Assembly (NCBI GenBank): GCA_021813585.1
Contig: JAKAJV010000121.1
Location: 1 to 64,000, forward strand
Source: Bacteroidota bacterium
Lineage (GTDB): Bacteria; Bacteroidota; Ignavibacteria; Ignavibacteriales; Ignavibacteriaceae
Reading direction: 5' to 3'
DNA: 64,000 nt
Within the stretch, counting starts at the first letter, position 1, and each line of letters begins with the position of its first letter. The position numbers and the translations under genes were made by a program. The notes below the pieces were generated by a model. That model searched no databases, had not been told where the DNA came from, and saw only the letters and a program-made list of their open reading frames with translations. Below are positions 20,512 through 27,638 of the stretch, piece by piece.

Positions 20512-22527
20512 ATGATGGCAATGATCGAAGATAAAATTAATGAGCTATGTATTAACACAATCAGATTCCTTGCTGTAGACGGAGTTCAAAAAGCAAACTC
20601 CGGGCACCCCGGCATGCCGATGGGCTGCGCTCCGATAGCATTTACTCTTTACACAAAATATATGAAGCACAATCCCGCAAACCCAAAGTGGCTGAACAGG
20701 GATAGATTTGTTTTATCTGCCGGGCACGGAAGTATGCTGCTGTACGGCACGCTTCACCTTTGCGGCTATAACATTCCAATGGAACAGCTTAAGCAGTTCA
20801 GGCAGTTCGGAAGCATTACACCCGGCCATCCAGAGTACGGGCTTACTTCAGGTGTCGAAACCACCACTGGTCCTCTTGGGCAGGGCTTCACAAACGCCGT
20901 GGGCATGGCTATAGCACAGGAATTCCTTTCTACTAAATTTAATAAAGACGATATAAAAATTCTCGATCATTTTATTTACGGTATTTGCAGCGACGGTGAT
21001 TTGATGGAAGGCGTATCCCACGAAGCAGCCGCACTCGCCGGGCATTTGAAACTTGGAAAAATAATTTTCTTTTACGATAACAATCATATTACTATTGACG
21101 GCCCTACTTCGCTTGCTTACTCAGACGATGTTCCCAAACGCTTCGAGGCCTACCACTGGCATGTTCAGGTAGTGGATGACGTGAACGACCTTAATGCGGT
21201 TGAAGCCGCACTTAGGAATGCGCAGAATGTAACGGACAAGCCCTCGATTATTATTACGACTACCCACATAGGCTACGGCAGCCCGAACAAGCATGATACT
21301 TCACACGCTCACGGCTCTCCTTTAGGACCCGAGGAAGTTAAGCTGACGAAAGAGAACCTCGGCTGGCCTGCAGAACCCGACTTCTTAATCCCCGGTGAAG
21401 TATCTGAGTTCTTTAAGAATGTTGGCATAAACGGAAAGGAAGAAGAAGATAAATGGAATGCGCTGTTTGCAAAGTATGAGGAAAAATATCCGGCAGATGC
21501 AAAATTGTTTAAAGAAGTAATGAGCGGAAATTTCGGAGATGAATGGAAAGAAAAGCTGCCGCTATTTAAAGATGACGGAAAGAAGCTTGCGACAAGAGCA
21601 GCCAGCGGTAAAGTTCTAAACGCTATAGTTTCATCGCTGCCCACATTAATTGGCGGCTCTGCCGATCTTGAACCTTCGAACAATACTTATTTGAAAGATT
21701 ATAAAAATTTCTCTGCCGAAAACCGTGACGGACGAAATTTTCACTTCGGGATACGCGAACACGGAATGGCAAGTATATTGAACGGTATGGCTTATTACGG
21801 CGGAGTTATTTCTTACGGCGGCACCTTCTTAATCTTCTCCGATTATCTCCGTCCGGCAATTCGTCTTGCTGCTCTTTCCAAAATAAAACCGATTTTTATC
21901 TTTACACACGACAGCATCGGGCTGGGTGAAGACGGACCCACACATCAGCCGGTAGAACATATGTCGGCTCTTAGGGCAATTCCCAACACCGTTGTTATAC
22001 GTCCTGCCGACGCAAACGAGACTGCCTATGCATGGCAGACTGCTCTTGAGCATAAAGGGGGTCCGGCTGCATTGCTGTTAACAAGGCAAGGCCTGCCGGT
22101 AATAGACCAGGAAAAATTTTCCTCGGCAAAAAACCTTGCAAAAGGCGCTTACATATTAAAAGACTGCAGCGGTACACCGGAGTTGATAATTCTTGCATCC
22201 GGCTCGGAAGTAAGCATATCTTTAGCTGCGGCAGAAATGCTGGAAGCGGAAGGCAGTAAAGTTAGAGTAGTAAGCTTTCCTAGCTGGGAGCTGTTTGAAC
22301 AGCAGCCGAAAGAATACCGCAACTCGGTAATTCCGCCGGATGTTAAGGCCCGCATCTCTGTTGAGGCGGGGACAAAACAAGGCTGGGAAAAATACATTGG
22401 CGATTACGGGGAAGCAGTAAGCATAGAAAAATTCGGTGCGTCGGCTCCTCTGAATGTTGTGATGGATAAATACGGCTTCACGCCGCAGAATATTGTTGAG
22501 ACGGCTAAGCGCGTTATGAAGAGATGA
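20512..22527 (+). CDS. tkt: Transketolase
   Basis: 671-residue thiamine-diphosphate enzyme of the non-oxidative pentose phosphate pathway, transferring two-carbon ketol units between sugar phosphates. N-terminal signatures SGHPGMPMGCAP and GHPEYG are followed by the ThDP/metal motif GDGDLMEGVSHEA-type sequence (read here as SDGDLMEGVS), KIIFFYDNNHITIDG, and the pyrimidine/C-terminal domain signature FTHDSIGLGEDGPTHQPVEH. The length is typical. It is preceded by a strong AAAGGAGACG site; the first of three nearby ATGs was chosen. A partial duplicate of its last ~35 codons lies at 23117-23221. Confidence 0.96.
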   Translation: MMAMIEDKINELCINTIRFLAVDGVQKANSGHPGMPMGCAPIAFTLYTKYMKHNPANPKWLNRDRFVLSAGHGSMLLYGTLHLCGYNIPMEQLKQFRQFGSITPGHPEYGLTSGVETTTGPLGQGFTNAVGMAIAQEFLSTKFNKDDIKILDHFIYGICSDGDLMEGVSHEAAALAGHLKLGKIIFFYDNNHITIDGPTSLAYSDDVPKRFEAYHWHVQVVDDVNDLNAVEAALRNAQNVTDKPSIIITTTHIGYGSPNKHDTSHAHGSPLGPEEVKLTKENLGWPAEPDFLIPGEVSEFFKNVGINGKEEEDKWNALFAKYEEKYPADAKLFKEVMSGNFGDEWKEKLPLFKDDGKKLATRAASGKVLNAIVSSLPTLIGGSADLEPSNNTYLKDYKNFSAENRDGRNFHFGIREHGMASILNGMAYYGGVISYGGTFLIFSDYLRPAIRLAALSKIKPIFIFTHDSIGLGEDGPTHQPVEHMSALRAIPNTVVIRPADANETAYAWQTALEHKGGPAALLLTRQGLPVIDQEKFSSAKNLAKGAYILKDCSGTPELIILASGSEVSISLAAAEMLEAEGSKVRVVSFPSWELFEQQPKEYRNSVIPPDVKARISVEAGTKQGWEKYIGDYGEAVSIEKFGASAPLNVVMDKYGFTPQNIVETAKRVMKR

Positions 22528-22541
22528 TTGTTGCAGATGTT

Positions 22542-22573
22542 AAACTTTACTAAACCCTTAAGGTTTAGTAAAG
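22542..22573. terminator. Hairpin shared by tkt and the convergent coiled-coil gene
   Basis: Inverted repeat CTTTACTAAACC / GGTTTAGTAAAG with a five-base loop, 15 bases after the tkt stop. It overlaps the last codons of the convergent minus-strand gene, so it can act as a bidirectional terminator. No long U-tract follows, so the strength is uncertain. A second copy exists at 23236-23270. Confidence 0.55.
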
Positions 22574-22989
22574 CTTGCTTGTTCCTCAAGTTTTACAATA
22601 CGCTTCTCATGGTTTTCAATTTTTTCCGTATTTTGAACATGCCCGCTGTAAAAATTCTCCAGCATTTTCATTATTCCCTTTTCTGTCATGTCGAGTTTCT
22701 TAAATATACTTTGCTTTAAGTCATTCAGTTTTAAGTCAAGTTGATTAAAGCGGCTGTCGGTATAGTCTTTCATAGACTGAACAGCAGCATCAACTTTTGA
22801 TTCTATTTTTGCATCTAAGCGCTGCTCAACCGCATCTATTTTTGCATCTAAGCGCTGCTCAACTGCATCTATTTTTGCATCAAGACGGTTTGTCACATCG
22901 TCTATTTTTACATCAAGACTGTTTATCTCCTTTTTAAGGAAATCTTTTGTAACATACTTTGGCTTCGAAGTTTTTTTAGCAGGCATCAT
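22558..22989 (-). CDS. Hendecad-repeat coiled-coil protein (copy 1)
   Basis: 143-residue soluble protein. The N-terminus is basic (PAKKTSKPKYVTKDFLKKE). Residues ~25-66 consist of 11-residue hendecads (LDAKIDAVEQR) that form a right-handed or straight coiled coil, followed by KVDAAVQSMKDYTDSRFNQL and a heptad C-terminal part ending EEQASFTKP. Paralogue of the protein at 23252-23821, which has more hendecads. There is no signal peptide; a structural or adaptor role is likely, but the function is unknown. The stop codon lies inside the terminator hairpin. Confidence 0.75.
   Translation of the reverse strand: MMPAKKTSKPKYVTKDFLKKEINSLDVKIDDVTNRLDAKIDAVEQRLDAKIDAVEQRLDAKIESKVDAAVQSMKDYTDSRFNQLDLKLNDLKQSIFKKLDMTEKGIMKMLENFYSGHVQNTEKIENHEKRIVKLEEQASFTKP
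22805..22903 (-). repeat. 33-bp tandem repeat, three units, in coiled-coil copy 1
   Basis: Three consecutive 33-base units (22805-22837, 22838-22870, 22871-22903), the first two nearly identical, with a diverged fourth beginning at 22904. Each unit encodes one hendecad (LDAKIDAVEQR type). Confidence 0.75.
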
Positions 22990-23116
22990 AAACCTTTATT
23001 TAATTATATTGAAAAAATGAGGATACGCATTAAGGAAATTACCTTTCTAACTTAAACGAGAATATAGTGAATAGCAAGAAAAATTCTTTTTAGCTACTAT
23101 GCTGCAAATAGGTAAT

Positions 23117-23221
23117 TTAAAAAGATACTGTTCTTCCCCACCAGTCAGCGTGGTTATGGAGAAGTACGGATTTACTTCTGATAATATCGTTGAGACTGCA
23201 AAGCGAGTATTGAAGAGATAA
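23117..23221 (+). pseudogene. Decayed duplicate of the transketolase 3' end
   Basis: Translating the plus strand gives LKRYCSSPPVS then VVMEKYGFTSDNIVETAK and RVLKR-stop. This aligns residue for residue with the real tkt C-terminus (VVMDKYGFTPQNIVETAK, RVMKR-stop). Similarity fades upstream of ~23117, and no start or upstream coding sequence is present, so it is a non-functional fragment. The following bases (TAAACTTTACTAAACC) also repeat the sequence after tkt. Confidence 0.85.
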
Positions 23222-23235
23222 TAGTTGTAGATGTT

Positions 23236-23270
23236 AAACTTTACTAAACCTTTAAAGTTTAGTAAAGTTT
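23236..23270. terminator. Second copy of the tkt/coiled-coil hairpin
   Basis: Perfect 14-base inverted repeat AAACTTTACTAAAC / GTTTAGTAAAGTTT with a seven-base loop. It overlaps the 3' end of the coiled-coil gene ending at 23252 and is a duplicate of the hairpin at 22542-22573. In the minus direction it probably terminates the coiled-coil gene. Confidence 0.5.
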
Positions 23271-23821
23271 GCTTGTTCCTCAAGTTTTACAATACGTTGT
23301 TCATGATCTTCTAATTGTTCTTTCATCTTTATCTGGTTGCTGTAAATATTCTCGAGCATAACCATTATCCCGTGCTCTGCCATATCCAGTTTTTTAGCAA
23401 ACATATCCATCTTCTGGTCTAACTGATTAAAGCGGCTGTCTGTATAATCTTTCATAGATTGGACGGCGGAATCAACTTTACTCTCAATCTTAGCATCAAG
23501 ACGTTTTTCTACTGCGTCTATCTTAGCATCAAGGCGTTTTTCAACTGCATCAATCTTAGCATCAAGGCGTTTTTCAACCGCATCAATCTTAGCATCAAGG
23601 CGTTTTTCAACTGCATCAATCTTAGCATTAAGGCGTTTTTCTACCTTATCGATCTTCGCATTAAGGCTCACATTAACTTTGTCAGTCTTTGCATCAAGGG
23701 CTTTTAAAGAGTTGTCTAACTTTTTGTCACCTTGTTTTATCAGTTTTTCAAGGCGGCTGGTCTCTTTCTTCAAATCTTCTTTAGTAAGATAGCCTGTCGA
23801 TAAGCCTCTTTTTGCAGGCAT
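23252..23821 (-). CDS. Hendecad-repeat coiled-coil protein (copy 2)
   Basis: 189-residue paralogue of the 22558-22989 protein, with the same architecture: basic N-terminus (PAKRGLSTGYLTKEDLKKE), a hendecad array (about six 11-residue units, LDAKIDAVEKR) at ~45-115, the shared block SKVDSAVQSMKDYTDSRFNQ, and a heptad tail ending EEQANFTKL. It is longer because it has extra hendecads. It probably forms an extended homo-oligomer; the function is unknown. Gene, terminator and upstream tkt fragment form one duplicated unit. Confidence 0.75.
   Translation of the reverse strand: MPAKRGLSTGYLTKEDLKKETSRLEKLIKQGDKKLDNSLKALDAKTDKVNVSLNAKIDKVEKRLNAKIDAVEKRLDAKIDAVEKRLDAKIDAVEKRLDAKIDAVEKRLDAKIESKVDSAVQSMKDYTDSRFNQLDQKMDMFAKKLDMAEHGIMVMLENIYSNQIKMKEQLEDHEQRIVKLEEQANFTKL
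23487..23684 (-). repeat. 33-bp tandem repeat, six units, in coiled-coil copy 2
   Basis: Six 33-base units starting at 23487, 23520, 23553, 23586, 23619 and 23652. Units 2-4 are nearly identical and the outer units diverge. Each encodes one hendecad. The central homogeneity suggests recent unit duplication. Confidence 0.8.
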
Positions 23822-24061
23822 TTTATTCCTTTTAATTATTGAATAATAAAAATATGATTCAACATAATAGCTGAATCAAACTTAATCATGAGATAAATAA
23901 ATAGCAATAAAAATTCTTTTTCGGCAGCCGGTACTACAAACCGGTAATATCACGATAAGTACGAAGCAAACATAAAAGTTATTCCGCCAGGCGTTCGTTA
24001 TAACAAGAATGACGATGGCAACAGCTAGCCGCCTGCTGGTGGAAGTACACCGCAGTAGTAA

Positions 24062-25021
24062 TTAAAGAAATAAAATATGCCCAACATCTCTGCCTGCGGG
24101 TAGGCAGATTAGAGACATTGGGTATCCGGATGGTACAGTAACTGTACCTGTTAATGAAATATTTCCACACCAGTAAGTATCTGAAGTAAGAGTACCGGAA
24201 GTGATAAACGTGTTTGGAACGTTACCTATTTTAATTGGAATAGAAGCAGTATGATGAACGCCGTCATTATCGGTTCCTCCGGTACTAAGAGTACCTATAA
24301 CATAACCATTTACATCTCTTTCCCATAAATATCCGTCAGGCAAATTTTGTAACACAAAGTCACCACTTGAGCCGCCATATAATTGAACCTCGCCGCAGCC
24401 GTAAGATGCTGTTATCTTCCAATTATCCCAGCTAACTATATAATCTCCAATTGGGCTTACATCAACAAAATTTCTATGGATATATCCCACATAAGTATGA
24501 TTTACATCGTAATGGTCTAAATCTTCTGTTAGAGTAATATAATCTTCGATACCTTGTATGTTTCCGTAAATATATTTAATACCATCTTTATCATCTTGTG
24601 TTAAATATCTATGTGTAACATCGCCATCGGCTAAGTATTTATACATGACATTGGGGGAACACGATGAACTAGTTTCATCGCCGAGATACAGCCAATGCCC
24701 AAATTCATGGCAAGCAGTACTCCATATATCTAATTGGTCGCTGGTTGGATTAGCCGAGAAGATATAGTTTTGGTTAAAATATGTTTCTACCTTTGTGATA
24801 TTAACACCATCTGGGTGATCAACCACCGTGATCGCATGGTTCGGAGTATTGTTCTCAAAATACCATGCAACTTGATAGATCCCATCTGGTTCATTTCCCT
24901 TATTATAACTTACATCGGATCCCTGGCTAAATTGAAAATATGCACCAGCGTTATTCCATTGTGATGCGGCTGATTGAATAGCTGTCTCATAGTCTTGTTG
25001 CGATGCGTACGAAGTATTCAT
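24062..25021 (-). CDS. Matrixin-like secreted metalloprotease (5' end frameshifted, 3' end altered)
   Basis: The open frame encodes 319 residues. The zinc motif is CHEFGHWLYLGD (HExxHxxxxxD, Asp as third ligand), followed by NVMYKYL, which resembles a Met-turn, and QDDKDGIKYIYG; this is the pattern of M10-type metzincins. Upstream helices (AIQSAASQWNNAGAYF) also match. The C-terminal ~190 residues are beta-rich. The ATG at 25021 is not the natural start: coding sequence continues upstream in this frame to 25120, where a T9 run breaks it from a signal peptide and ribosome site (see 25022-25166). The end is also odd, as the last ~20 codons run through a palindrome. Probably an exported protease; whether it is expressed is unclear. 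Confidence 0.7.
   Translation of the reverse strand: MNTSYASQQDYETAIQSAASQWNNAGAYFQFSQGSDVSYNKGNEPDGIYQVAWYFENNTPNHAITVVDHPDGVNITKVETYFNQNYIFSANPTSDQLDIWSTACHEFGHWLYLGDETSSSCSPNVMYKYLADGDVTHRYLTQDDKDGIKYIYGNIQGIEDYITLTEDLDHYDVNHTYVGYIHRNFVDVSPIGDYIVSWDNWKITASYGCGEVQLYGGSSGDFVLQNLPDGYLWERDVNGYVIGTLSTGGTDNDGVHHTASIPIKIGNVPNTFITSGTLTSDTYWCGNISLTGTVTVPSGYPMSLICLPAGRDVGHILFL
24080..24122. repeat. 43-bp imperfect palindrome at the protease 3' end
   Basis: Outer arms CCCAACATCTCT and AGAGACATTGGG (10 of 12 pair) enclose an inner stem CTGCCT/AGGCAG (24090-24095, 24102-24107). It lies inside the last codons of the protease and reads as LICLPAGRDV. It could be a terminator stem or a REP-like insertion. 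Confidence 0.55.
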
Positions 25022-25166
25022 ATTGCTATTTATATGATATATTATCGAATTGGATGACCAACTCCATCCATCAGTAGCATCATAGCATTGTGCAAGTATA
25101 TTTTTTCCCTGAAAATTTGCAAAAAAAAATTAATATTAAAACAATTTTTAAAAAGCGCAAATTCAT
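25022..25166 (-). pseudogene. Out-of-frame signal-peptide segment of the matrixin-like protease
   Basis: On the minus strand an AGGAGG site precedes ATG (25166), which reads MNLRFLKIVLILIFF and then enters nine Ts (A9 at 25121-25129 on the plus strand). As sequenced this frame stops soon after, at TGCACAATGCTATGA. Removing one T continues as ANFQGKNILAQ, CYDATDGWSW and on in frame into the protease ORF with no stop, giving a textbook signal peptide ending ILAQ. So the gene is split by a single-base homopolymer change, either a sequencing error, a null allele or a slippage switch. Confidence 0.75.
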
Positions 25167-25192
25167 AATATAATTCCTCCTAAAATTTAGTC

Positions 25193-25918
25193 CTATTTAT
25201 TTATAGATAAATTACGATGAATTGTTGTGAGTACTGTTTTAATATCATCGCTCACATTGGCTAAGTCTTTTGCTCTATTATGGGAGATTACTTTTCCAGA
25301 ACTTATGTCAAATTTTGCAATAATTTCAAAATTTATTTTTGAATCATTTATCAACTTATTGAATAGATTGTGCAAATCATTATTTGCTGCAAATCTGATC
25401 AGTGAATTAGCGCTAAGGAAAAGCAAACCATGTTCTCCGATTCCTAATGTGTCTTCGCCAACAAGTGTCCTTGTTGGACTCGAAACAATCATAATTGGTA
25501 GTTGACCTAAATGAATATTGTAATCATTTCTAAGAAACTTTTCTACCTGGACATATGCTACAGAATGAAACCATTGTAATCCTTCTGGGTGTTCGATTTT
25601 TGAAACTTTGCCAATAATAATACAATCCGAAATTGCTGCCAATATTTTTGCATTCCAGGGTACAGATGCTTTTTGTAAACTTAAAAGATCTACTCCGATT
25701 TTTTGAAGGTTTGTAATGATTGTGTCATTATAGCCCATACTAATAAGTGATTCTTCATTTAATTGTGAGGATGATAATTTTGTTTTACCATTTTCTATAT
25801 GCGAAGACCATCCCCGCTGCCTCATTATTTTATACACAGGGTTTATTTGTGCTTCAGCAGTCGAAAAAATCAGCGTCATTAGTATAAATGCAACAAAAGA
25901 TTTACATAAGTAATACAT
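25193..25918 (-). CDS. Secreted protein of unknown function beside the matrixin
   Basis: 241 residues; signal peptide 1-23 ends STAEAQ. The mature protein has a beta-rich core (CIIIGKVSKIEH, VAYVQVEKFLRND, GEHGLLFLS) resembling secreted proteins whose core pattern is a hydrophobic strand, then a conserved LRN/LKG element and a GE..LFLS strand. No catalytic motif is visible. It is 27 bases upstream of the corrected start of the matrixin-like protease, so the two likely form an operon and may work together, for example as protease and partner or inhibitor; that is inference. Confidence 0.6.
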   Translation of the reverse strand: MYYLCKSFVAFILMTLIFSTAEAQINPVYKIMRQRGWSSHIENGKTKLSSSQLNEESLISMGYNDTIITNLQKIGVDLLSLQKASVPWNAKILAAISDCIIIGKVSKIEHPEGLQWFHSVAYVQVEKFLRNDYNIHLGQLPIMIVSSPTRTLVGEDTLGIGEHGLLFLSANSLIRFAANNDLHNLFNKLINDSKINFEIIAKFDISSGKVISHNRAKDLANVSDDIKTVLTTIHRNLSINK

Positions 25919-26169
25919 AATGCACTATCCTCCTAATAATTATTAATACAGAACAGGTTTATTAAAATTTAAGTATACAGGCATTCTCCATACTTATTAT
26001 TATAACAATGAATAAATGAAACGCCATAATTTCAAGTTCAACTAAGAATAAATTTGAATTTGTGCAATCAATAATTGCAGGTAAACTAATTATTTAATAT
26101 TGTTTTGTAAATAGTAAAACTTTCCTATTTTTATAGTAAAATTTTATAGGAAAGGATGCGATGAAATTA

Positions 26170-27432
26170 TTACATTAACATTTCTCTTAACTCTTTTATG
26201 CCCTTTACACCAAGCTTATCCTTTATATTCTCAATGTGCTTATTAACGGTGCTGTTAGCCCTGTTAATATGCTGCGCTATTTCCTTATAGCTCAATCCTT
26301 CCTGCAAGTAATTTAAAATTTCCTTTTCACGCTGGGTTAATATTGTATCGTACTTTGTACCGGCGTAAAGTATATCGAGTGTTCTCTCGCGGTAGTATTT
26401 TTCTCCGCCCGCAACTTTAATAACAGCATCCTTCAATTTAACTTCTTCAGAAAATTTGCTAACTATTCCTTCAGCACCAGTATTAATTAGCTTTTTTATA
26501 TGGCCAGGTTCAAGCCTGTCTGTATATATTATCTTTTGGGGTTTAGATATTTTATTAAACGATTGAAAACCGCCGTTCTTATTTAGGGGCGGTATATTTA
26601 ACACAGGAATTTGTCCTGCTGAAATATTACTATCGTCATATATTATTACATCATAATTAACACTCTCTTTTTTTTGTTCTTCGTTTATATTAAAGTATTT
26701 TTTTGTGTCGAGGCTTATTAAGGCATCATCTGAAAACAGTGAAATTATTCCGGTTATTATTACAGGTTCGGCAGATACAAATAAGGCTTTAATTTTTTTC
26801 TCTTTCAATACTAGTTCTTTTATTTTTTTATTTGTATTAGGCTCATACGGCAAAGCTTTACCTTGGCCAAAAGAATATCTTTCTAGAATGGCTTTAGCCA
26901 CGGTATTATCCAATGCCCATTTATCTCTTCTAGATAAAACATTGCGGACCACACCATCATAGAAGAATATACCGTTCTTTGCCATTTTTACTGCTTCAAT
27001 TAATACCTTGCCCGCTTGTTCCCTAGCCTGTGTATTGATTATTTCCCTGGTGAAAAAATTTTTAAGATTTGTTGTTCTATCATGGAGTATACAGTTTACG
27101 TTAAATATCAGGAGCTCATTTAAATATCCGGCATCAAGGCTGTCGGTGTATACTATTGTTTTAATTCCGTCACGTTTAAAGCCTGAATTATAATTTTTAA
27201 GGAAGTTAACTGTTTGTATTTTATTTGAGGAAAGATCATCAATAAAAATTACACCTTTATTTTGAAGAGAAGATTTTCTATTGCTTAGAAAATGCTTCAA
27301 TGCAGAATCAAAGCTATAATAACAACCGGAAAGCCGGATTTCACTTTCCATTTTAAGGAGGTTTTTTATACCTTCTAATAAAGAGGCGTTTCCTGAAACA
27401 GCATAAAAAATAATTTTTGTATGCATCCCCAA
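26170..27432 (-). CDS. LuxR-type regulator with two divergent receiver-like domains
   Basis: 420 residues. The C-terminal ~60 residues are a LuxR/FixJ HTH (LTQREKEILNYLQEGLSYKE, then ANSTVNKHIENIKDKLG). Upstream are two consecutive CheY-like segments: residues ~5-125 (GVIFIDDLSS, TIVYTDSLDAG, NCILHDRT) and ~210-335 (VIIYDDSN, KIIYTDRLEPGHIKKL, GAEGIVSKFSE, then the characteristic GGEKYYRE linker). Both lack a clean set of phospho-acceptor and Lys residues, so phosphorylation is doubtful. Sequence is very AT-rich (the line 26641-26700 is 18% G+C), unlike the metabolic genes. Confidence 0.7.
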   Translation of the reverse strand: MGMHTKIIFYAVSGNASLLEGIKNLLKMESEIRLSGCYYSFDSALKHFLSNRKSSLQNKGVIFIDDLSSNKIQTVNFLKNYNSGFKRDGIKTIVYTDSLDAGYLNELLIFNVNCILHDRTTNLKNFFTREIINTQAREQAGKVLIEAVKMAKNGIFFYDGVVRNVLSRRDKWALDNTVAKAILERYSFGQGKALPYEPNTNKKIKELVLKEKKIKALFVSAEPVIITGIISLFSDDALISLDTKKYFNINEEQKKESVNYDVIIYDDSNISAGQIPVLNIPPLNKNGGFQSFNKISKPQKIIYTDRLEPGHIKKLINTGAEGIVSKFSEEVKLKDAVIKVAGGEKYYRERTLDILYAGTKYDTILTQREKEILNYLQEGLSYKEIAQHINRANSTVNKHIENIKDKLGVKGIKELREMLM

Positions 27433-27585
27433 TTCTCTCCCTGGGTATTAAAACCTACCTGCCGTGAGTGTTGCACAACTCAGAAATTATTATTTAGAAG
27501 TAGTCCTCGACTCTGCTGATAGGCAAGTTGTTAAAGAAACAAAACTCGGTAAAGAAGAATAAATTTTATATGATAAAATATAATT

Positions 27586-27595
27586 GGGGGGGGGG
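27586..27595. repeat. G10 homopolymer in the intergenic region
   Basis: Ten consecutive G residues in an otherwise AT-rich 206-base spacer, 154-163 bases upstream of the LuxR-like regulator start. Such tracts are prone to length change; no function is demonstrated. Confidence 0.5.
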
Positions 27596-27638
27596 TAAAT
27601 GTCAATGAATAAGTTTCTTTAAGAATTAATAATTGAAA

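Follow-up and report, generated by a model that had tools for sequence, protein, structure and literature searches.

Recombination around partial homology, as in the merodiploid tandem duplications of natural transformation, can leave a partial second copy next to the native one. The Bdr proteins of Borrelia have a C-terminal hydrophobic segment. Homology-facilitated illegitimate recombination is treated in one paper (PMC3784515), and another describes the KID-repeat Bdr proteins of Borrelia as a multigene family without known function, in which strains differ in the number of repeats (PMC3303823). Here, we describe a locus with a likeness to both in a 64,000-nucleotide (nt) stretch of a Bacteroidota genome of the family Ignavibacteriaceae. 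This stretch (the window) lies on contig C116 of a draft of 4.54 Mb in 142 contigs with a contamination estimate of 0.64. It carries an intact gene that we take to encode transketolase (tkt) and, behind it, a second tkt tail of 35 codons, and each of the two tails is followed by a hairpin and a convergent gene for a coiled-coil protein (coil genes A and B). The wear pattern of the extra tail suggests that, until fairly recently, it formed part of a functional transketolase, possibly one from a sister species, and is not a local copy that simply decayed. Our best reading of the locus, which we give about an even chance of being right, is a xenologous partial tandem duplication in which a sister lineage outside the sampled genomes took part.

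The Tandem Units Behind tkt

The repeated unit consists of the tkt 3' end, the hairpin, the convergent coil gene and a promoter-like motif. Its two copies, unit A at about 22420-23110 and unit B at about 23114-23945, have the same orientation and abut, as a simple tandem duplication of one segment would produce. The features are listed below in window coordinates.

20512-22527, plus strand: intact tkt, a transketolase of 671 amino acids with homologues in 55 of 59 genomes
22420-22527, plus strand: tail of the intact tkt, its final 35 codons with the stop, forming the left part of unit A
22517-22596: high-identity patch common to units A and B, 74 of 80 columns identical
22542-22576: hairpin A, which overlaps coil gene A at its 3' end, with 15-nt arms in the repeat search and 12 pairs in the terminator scan
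22558-22989, minus strand: coiled-coil gene A, 143 amino acids, reading frame open
23047-23077, minus strand: promoter-like motif of coil gene A, TTG-N20-TAAGTTAG
23114-23221, plus strand: second tkt tail, 35 codons and stop, in frame, without the rest of the enzyme
23236-23270: hairpin B, found in the repeat search and the terminator scan
23252-23821, minus strand: coiled-coil gene B, 189 amino acids, reading frame open, with KID repeats
23877-23907, minus strand: promoter-like motif of coil gene B, TTG-N20-TAAGTTTG
22528-27638: 5.1-kb stretch from tkt to a DJ-1/PfpI-like gene, 115 bp in genomes G001 and G007

An earlier note on this DNA had proposed that tkt 3' end, hairpin and convergent coil gene form a unit present twice. 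This is borne out by three direct repeats from the repeat search (22424-22702/23118-23396, 279 nt, 75% identity; 22735-22924/23417-23606, 190 nt, 73%; 23046-23091/23876-23921, 46 nt, 76%) and by the alignment of the two halves that the note had suggested, in which tkt tail, hairpin, coil gene and upstream flank are common to both. Overall, units A and B are 65% identical over 663 columns, a value kept low by weak conservation in the 5' part of the coil genes and in much of the flank. The similar sequence noticed upstream of both coil genes is real; within this common flank, both copies have the motif TTG-N20-TAAGTT(T/A)G, which resembles the Bacteroidota promoter consensus. Its strict form, TTG-N19-21-TAnnTTTG, is matched by B and is one base off in A, and the window holds four strict sites on the minus strand and none on the plus strand. 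A scan for sigma-70-type promoters was uninformative (5 sites against 5.4 expected). Each coil gene probably has a promoter of its own from which it is expressed.

Coding Constraint in the tkt Fragment

The fragment reads NLKRYCSSPPVSVVMEKYGFTSDNIVETAKRVLKR-stop, compared with SIEKFGASAPLNVVMDKYGFTPQNIVETAKRVMKR-stop in the intact tail, and is open up to its stop. Over its 35 codons the two differ at 9, 4 and 21 sites of codon positions 1, 2 and 3 (third-position excess, P = 0.0006), which amounts to 0.82 synonymous and 0.18 non-synonymous differences per site. The resident tkt differs from those of G003, G010 and G002 by 0.80, 0.76 and 0.76 synonymous differences per site, respectively. By this measure, the synonymous divergence of the fragment is saturated and on the level seen between tkt genes of different species in the genus.

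We placed the fragment in a tree with 14 tkt sequences from the 30 tkt loci compared; codon alignment and tree replaced an ungapped comparison of tails, which is misleading for tkt genes with C-terminal extensions. The fragment's own branch measures 0.165 at positions 1 and 2 and 1.83 at position 3. This 11-fold ratio resembles that of the intact tkt of G003 (0.049 and 0.52; resident tkt, 0.042 and 0.99). Because the two branches of an unconstrained fragment would be about equal, the ratio argues that the fragment has not been unconstrained since the duplication. Conserved residues are intact in its last 24 codons despite saturated synonymous change, and for these codons, a split picked after viewing the alignment, the neutral model reaches a log-likelihood of -9.66 against -3.38. 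Of the earlier description as a decayed remnant of the last ~35 tkt codons at 23117-23221, the length holds; codon alignment puts the start near 23114 with the first codons poorly matched, and decay can apply to at most a few changes in the first 11 codons. During most of the time since it separated, the fragment probably belonged to a functional tkt. It also lies within a 40-codon frame with an upstream ATG (23099-23221), a frame that is probably due to chance.

The High-Identity Patch and the Hairpins

The 74 identities in the best 80 columns of the alignment are equalled in none of 3000 column shuffles (shuffle maximum 71), and the patch spans the hairpin plus the end of the coil gene. In their last 15 codons, coil genes A and B show 1 synonymous difference in 9.3 sites (0.11), compared with 60.4 in 69.8 sites elsewhere (0.87; Fisher P = 8e-6 on rounded counts), where non-synonymous differences amount to 0.20 per site. 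The view that the hairpin was preserved while the proteins diverged is right in that the hairpin is better kept, but the preserved patch also covers the end of the coil gene. Of 11 further coil pairs, compared over a 14-codon end, seven show no clear dip at the 3' end (0.71-0.92), namely A and B against the third coil gene of the same genome on contig C112 (both 0.86), A and C112 against the coil gene of G007 (0.82 and 0.74), and pairs 2-4, 4-5 and 3-5 of the coil genes in G507. We take the patch between A and B for a footprint of recombination or conversion; alternatively, the hairpin region may be under selection.

Four hairpin-bearing stretches fold better than their shuffles (z -1.75 to -2.93). 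Hairpins A and B are listed as terminator-like on the plus strand, in a region with 5 such sites where 1.2 are expected, and the tails after their stems are T-poor. A palindrome of this kind, with up to three mismatches, occurs at five places in the genome (A, B and three others), compared with 0 for the reversed control. Two of the others, L083:3791-3815 and L090:3569-3593, lie 13 and 3 bases 3' of the stops of unrelated open reading frames (ORFs), a position expected of terminators. A widespread repeat family was considered and rejected, given these five places and the exact pattern in 0 of 25 other genomes. The hairpin probably ends transcripts at the boundary of tkt and coil gene.

The tkt Neighbourhood in Related Genomes

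The order of the locus is tkt on the plus strand, the two coil genes on the minus strand, an M10-type peptidase ORF, a LuxR-type regulator, a hypothetical ORF and two genes that, by their sequence, we take to be DJ-1/PfpI-like and mfd. In the congeners G001 and G007, tkt faces DJ-1 and mfd across a gap of 115 bp instead of 5.1 kb. The units therefore postdate the split from both or were lost in both, and this is the date that a comparison with syntenic loci, as proposed earlier, provides. Seven other tkt loci of the genus (G003, G010, G005, G006, G008, G009, and G011) have different downstream neighbours, and the downstream view of the G002 tkt is limited to 35 bp. On the 3' side of unit B, a short frame at 23954-24055 resembles another gene tail (YEANIKVIPPGVRYNKNDDGNS-stop-PPAGGSTPQ-stop); it has no match in the other genomes searched (25/26).

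Origin of the Tandem Units

We favour a xenologous origin because both tail and coil gene have diverged to species level, the fragment shows coding constraint, the patch is near-identical and the gap in congeners is short. Between A and B, synonymous differences per site are 0.82 in the tkt tail and 0.87 in the coil body, against 0.76-0.80 between the resident tkt and those of congeners. Also in line with this origin are the place of the fragment beside the resident tkt in the tree and the likeness in tetranucleotide composition of the window on the two sides of the locus. An ancestor of this genome would have gained a coil gene behind tkt, and DNA of a sister lineage with the same arrangement would then have recombined there. 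The conserved hairpin and coil 3' end may have served as homology, and the other joint may have formed by chance or through very short homology; both joined ends carry GTAA, and four bases prove little. As a result, the intact tkt would have stayed, the tkt tail of the other lineage would have been placed behind coil gene A, and the patch would have been homogenised.

Several points weigh against this origin. The fragment offers only 35 codons and thus little data for a test of constraint. The constraint sits in its last 24 codons (3/1/15 differences at positions 1/2/3) and the first 11 are without it (6/3/6), and over all 35 codons the neutral model is rejected weakly (log-likelihood -7.21 vs. 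-4.10). The tree places the fragment beside the resident tkt with a support of 78, a grouping that would also suit a paralogue, and several nodes nearby are weak (24-51). No donor was found: coil matches in the family number 4 of 80 genomes including this one, and none was seen beside tkt outside it. In G019, the coil gene and tkt are not adjacent. At the G007 coil locus, the sequence reaches 241 bp past the coil 3' end, and the tkt tail of G007 faces DJ-1; in G726, the contig ends inside the coil gene, which leaves its 3' side, the expected place of a tkt tail, out of view. Finally, the coil 3' end shows milder dips in B-G019 (0.45 vs. 0.75) and in the G507 pairs 3-4 (0.40 vs. 0.85), 2-3 (0.60 vs. 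0.82) and 1-3 (0.56 vs. 0.78), each on 6 to 12 sites, so that part of the patch may be ordinary conservation.

The fragment has diverged as it would inside a working gene, within the limits of 35 codons, and a paralogue kept for long would have done the same. The whole unit of tkt, hairpin and coil gene might have duplicated in this lineage long ago, both tkt genes remaining functional until the second was deleted save for its last 35 codons. The constrained branch, the grouping with the resident tkt and the order and orientation of the units all agree with such a history, as do second tkt copies in some relatives, e.g., G001 and G007. We nevertheless regard this main rival as less likely, since it requires two nearly equal tkt genes to have persisted up to synonymous saturation, the second full-length copies listed are distant (identity 54% in G001, 53% in G007, and 51% in G024), and the deletion would have to end near the upstream flank of coil gene A. 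A plain local duplication, with the fragment decaying ever since and the hairpin alone preserved by selection, would give the simplest arrangement. The tandem copies of the earlier proposal are real, and the unconstrained look of the first 11 codons and the weak rejection of neutrality speak for it. So does the change of GASAP to CSSPP in the fragment, in which the G and the second A, unchanged in the 14 other alignment rows, became C and P; such changes may reflect later decay or a poorly matched left end. Copying in place followed by steady decay fits poorly, however, with the third-position excess over 35 codons, the 11-fold ratio on the fragment's own branch and the conserved residues of the last 24 codons. 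Of the 35 codons, only the first 11 look as this history predicts, and we hold it to be improbable. An assembly chimera of two related species joined at tkt is very improbable. The draft is split into many contigs, G+C content is 42.1% to the left and 39.1% to the right of the locus, and stretch L006 of the same genome is nearer to the right side (0.114) than to the left (0.170). Against a chimera, the roughly 4 bp common at the junction are too short for the usual k-mer join, the tetranucleotide distance between left and right (0.142) falls in the range of those within the sides (0.137 and 0.157), identity to G001 is 73% for mfd on the right and 76% for tkt on the left, and the contamination estimate is 0.64.

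Compatible with any of these origins is another reading of the patch, namely that it reflects selection for an RNA or terminator element and was not made by recombination. The folding of the hairpin stretches, the terminator-like matches at both copies, the palindromes elsewhere in the genome, two of which were examined and lie just 3' of stops, and the milder dips seen for B-G019 and for three of the six G507 pairs make this a real possibility, if one that falls short of an even chance. Yet the patch runs about 20 bp past the main hairpin into coil codons that vary freely in the four pairs among A, B, C112 and G007 quantified above, and the tails after the stems are T-poor. With a xenologous origin, the locus would be a small, testable example of how recombination between species might place partial xenologues next to housekeeping genes. 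A gene-tail fragment that accompanies the intact gene is easily mistaken for a decayed local duplicate; here, the analysis of codon positions points elsewhere.

The Coil Family

The locus also draws attention to a rare, patchily distributed coiled-coil family with KID-type repeats, of which the coil protein is a member. Counting this genome each time, matches occur in 3 of 59 relatives, 2 of 13 genomes of the genus and the 4 family genomes mentioned above; by core peptide, they occur in 4 of 391 genomes of the class, and at a strict threshold in 1 of 395 of the phylum, namely this one. The five closest members have in common an invariant AVQSMKDYTDSRF core and the ending HE--I-KLEE. A scan of named genome records yielded seven loci, those of G019 and G007 and five lower-scoring ones (Synergistaceae, Agathobacter, Bacillota, Clostridiales, and Microbacterium) that may share the repeats only. 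For Pfam PF02524 (KID repeats, cut-off 20.8), coil B scores 43.8 bits over five stretches and coil A 15.9 bits, below the cut-off; NCBIfam gave matches only below curated cut-offs. The predicted structure of coil A is one long helix (residues 15-140; mean predicted local distance difference test score 88.7, predicted template modelling score 0.37), from which we would guess at a scaffold-like role. A phage origin is not supported, as coil A has no tblastn match in 50,697 phage records; coil B has two weak matches in viral contigs (E 9e-7 and 3e-5). PHROG matches fall mostly into families of unknown function, and coil B matches a tape-measure family most strongly (E 5.9e-9; 122 residues against a profile of 2105 positions). 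Tape-measure profiles are readily matched by long coiled coils.

The third coil gene of this genome (C112:29858-30283; L006:3859-4284) is without hairpin and lies between a presumed ABC-transporter pair on one side and a presumed yceD-plsX-fabH-like run on the other. The G007 coil gene (L055:957-5647 for the locus) stands behind a presumed malQ in a run that starts with a hydrolase gene, a relative of which follows tkt in G005, G006, G008, G009, and G011. The class relative G507 has five adjacent, diverged coil genes (L082:6650-9360), the first of which is flanked on both sides by a different, nearly perfect palindrome. Coil gene and terminal hairpin could conceivably form a small cargo cassette, moving from lineage to lineage by recombination through its own 3' end, although we think this quite improbable. 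The conserved 3' end and hairpin would act as anchor and the tail of the preceding gene would be dragged along; if so, diverged tandem copies with duplicated hairpins would be a habit of the family, in G507 as well, there with hairpins of another sequence.

Comparison With Known Systems

Among the open-licence papers listed for KID repeats and Bdr, homology-facilitated illegitimate recombination, xenologous tandem fragments and Ignavibacteria, none describes the coil family or the locus. Compared with Borrelia Bdr proteins (PF02524), the likeness lies in the 11-residue KID-type repeats: of 115 plasmid records matched by coil A in tblastn, 114 are from Borrelia or Borreliella, with at most 39.6% identity among the 15 matches listed. 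In contrast to Bdr, the coil genes lie on a contig with housekeeping genes, the five closest members have the invariant core, and the proteins lack an obvious hydrophobic C-terminus, as both A and B end, by eye, in charged sequence. With ordinary tandem gene duplication, the locus has direct orientation, the same order and abutting copies in common, but here the copies have diverged to species level and the fragment shows coding constraint. It resembles merodiploid duplication and homology-facilitated illegitimate recombination in the partial second copy next to the native gene; here, however, the event is read from the sequence of one fixed locus.

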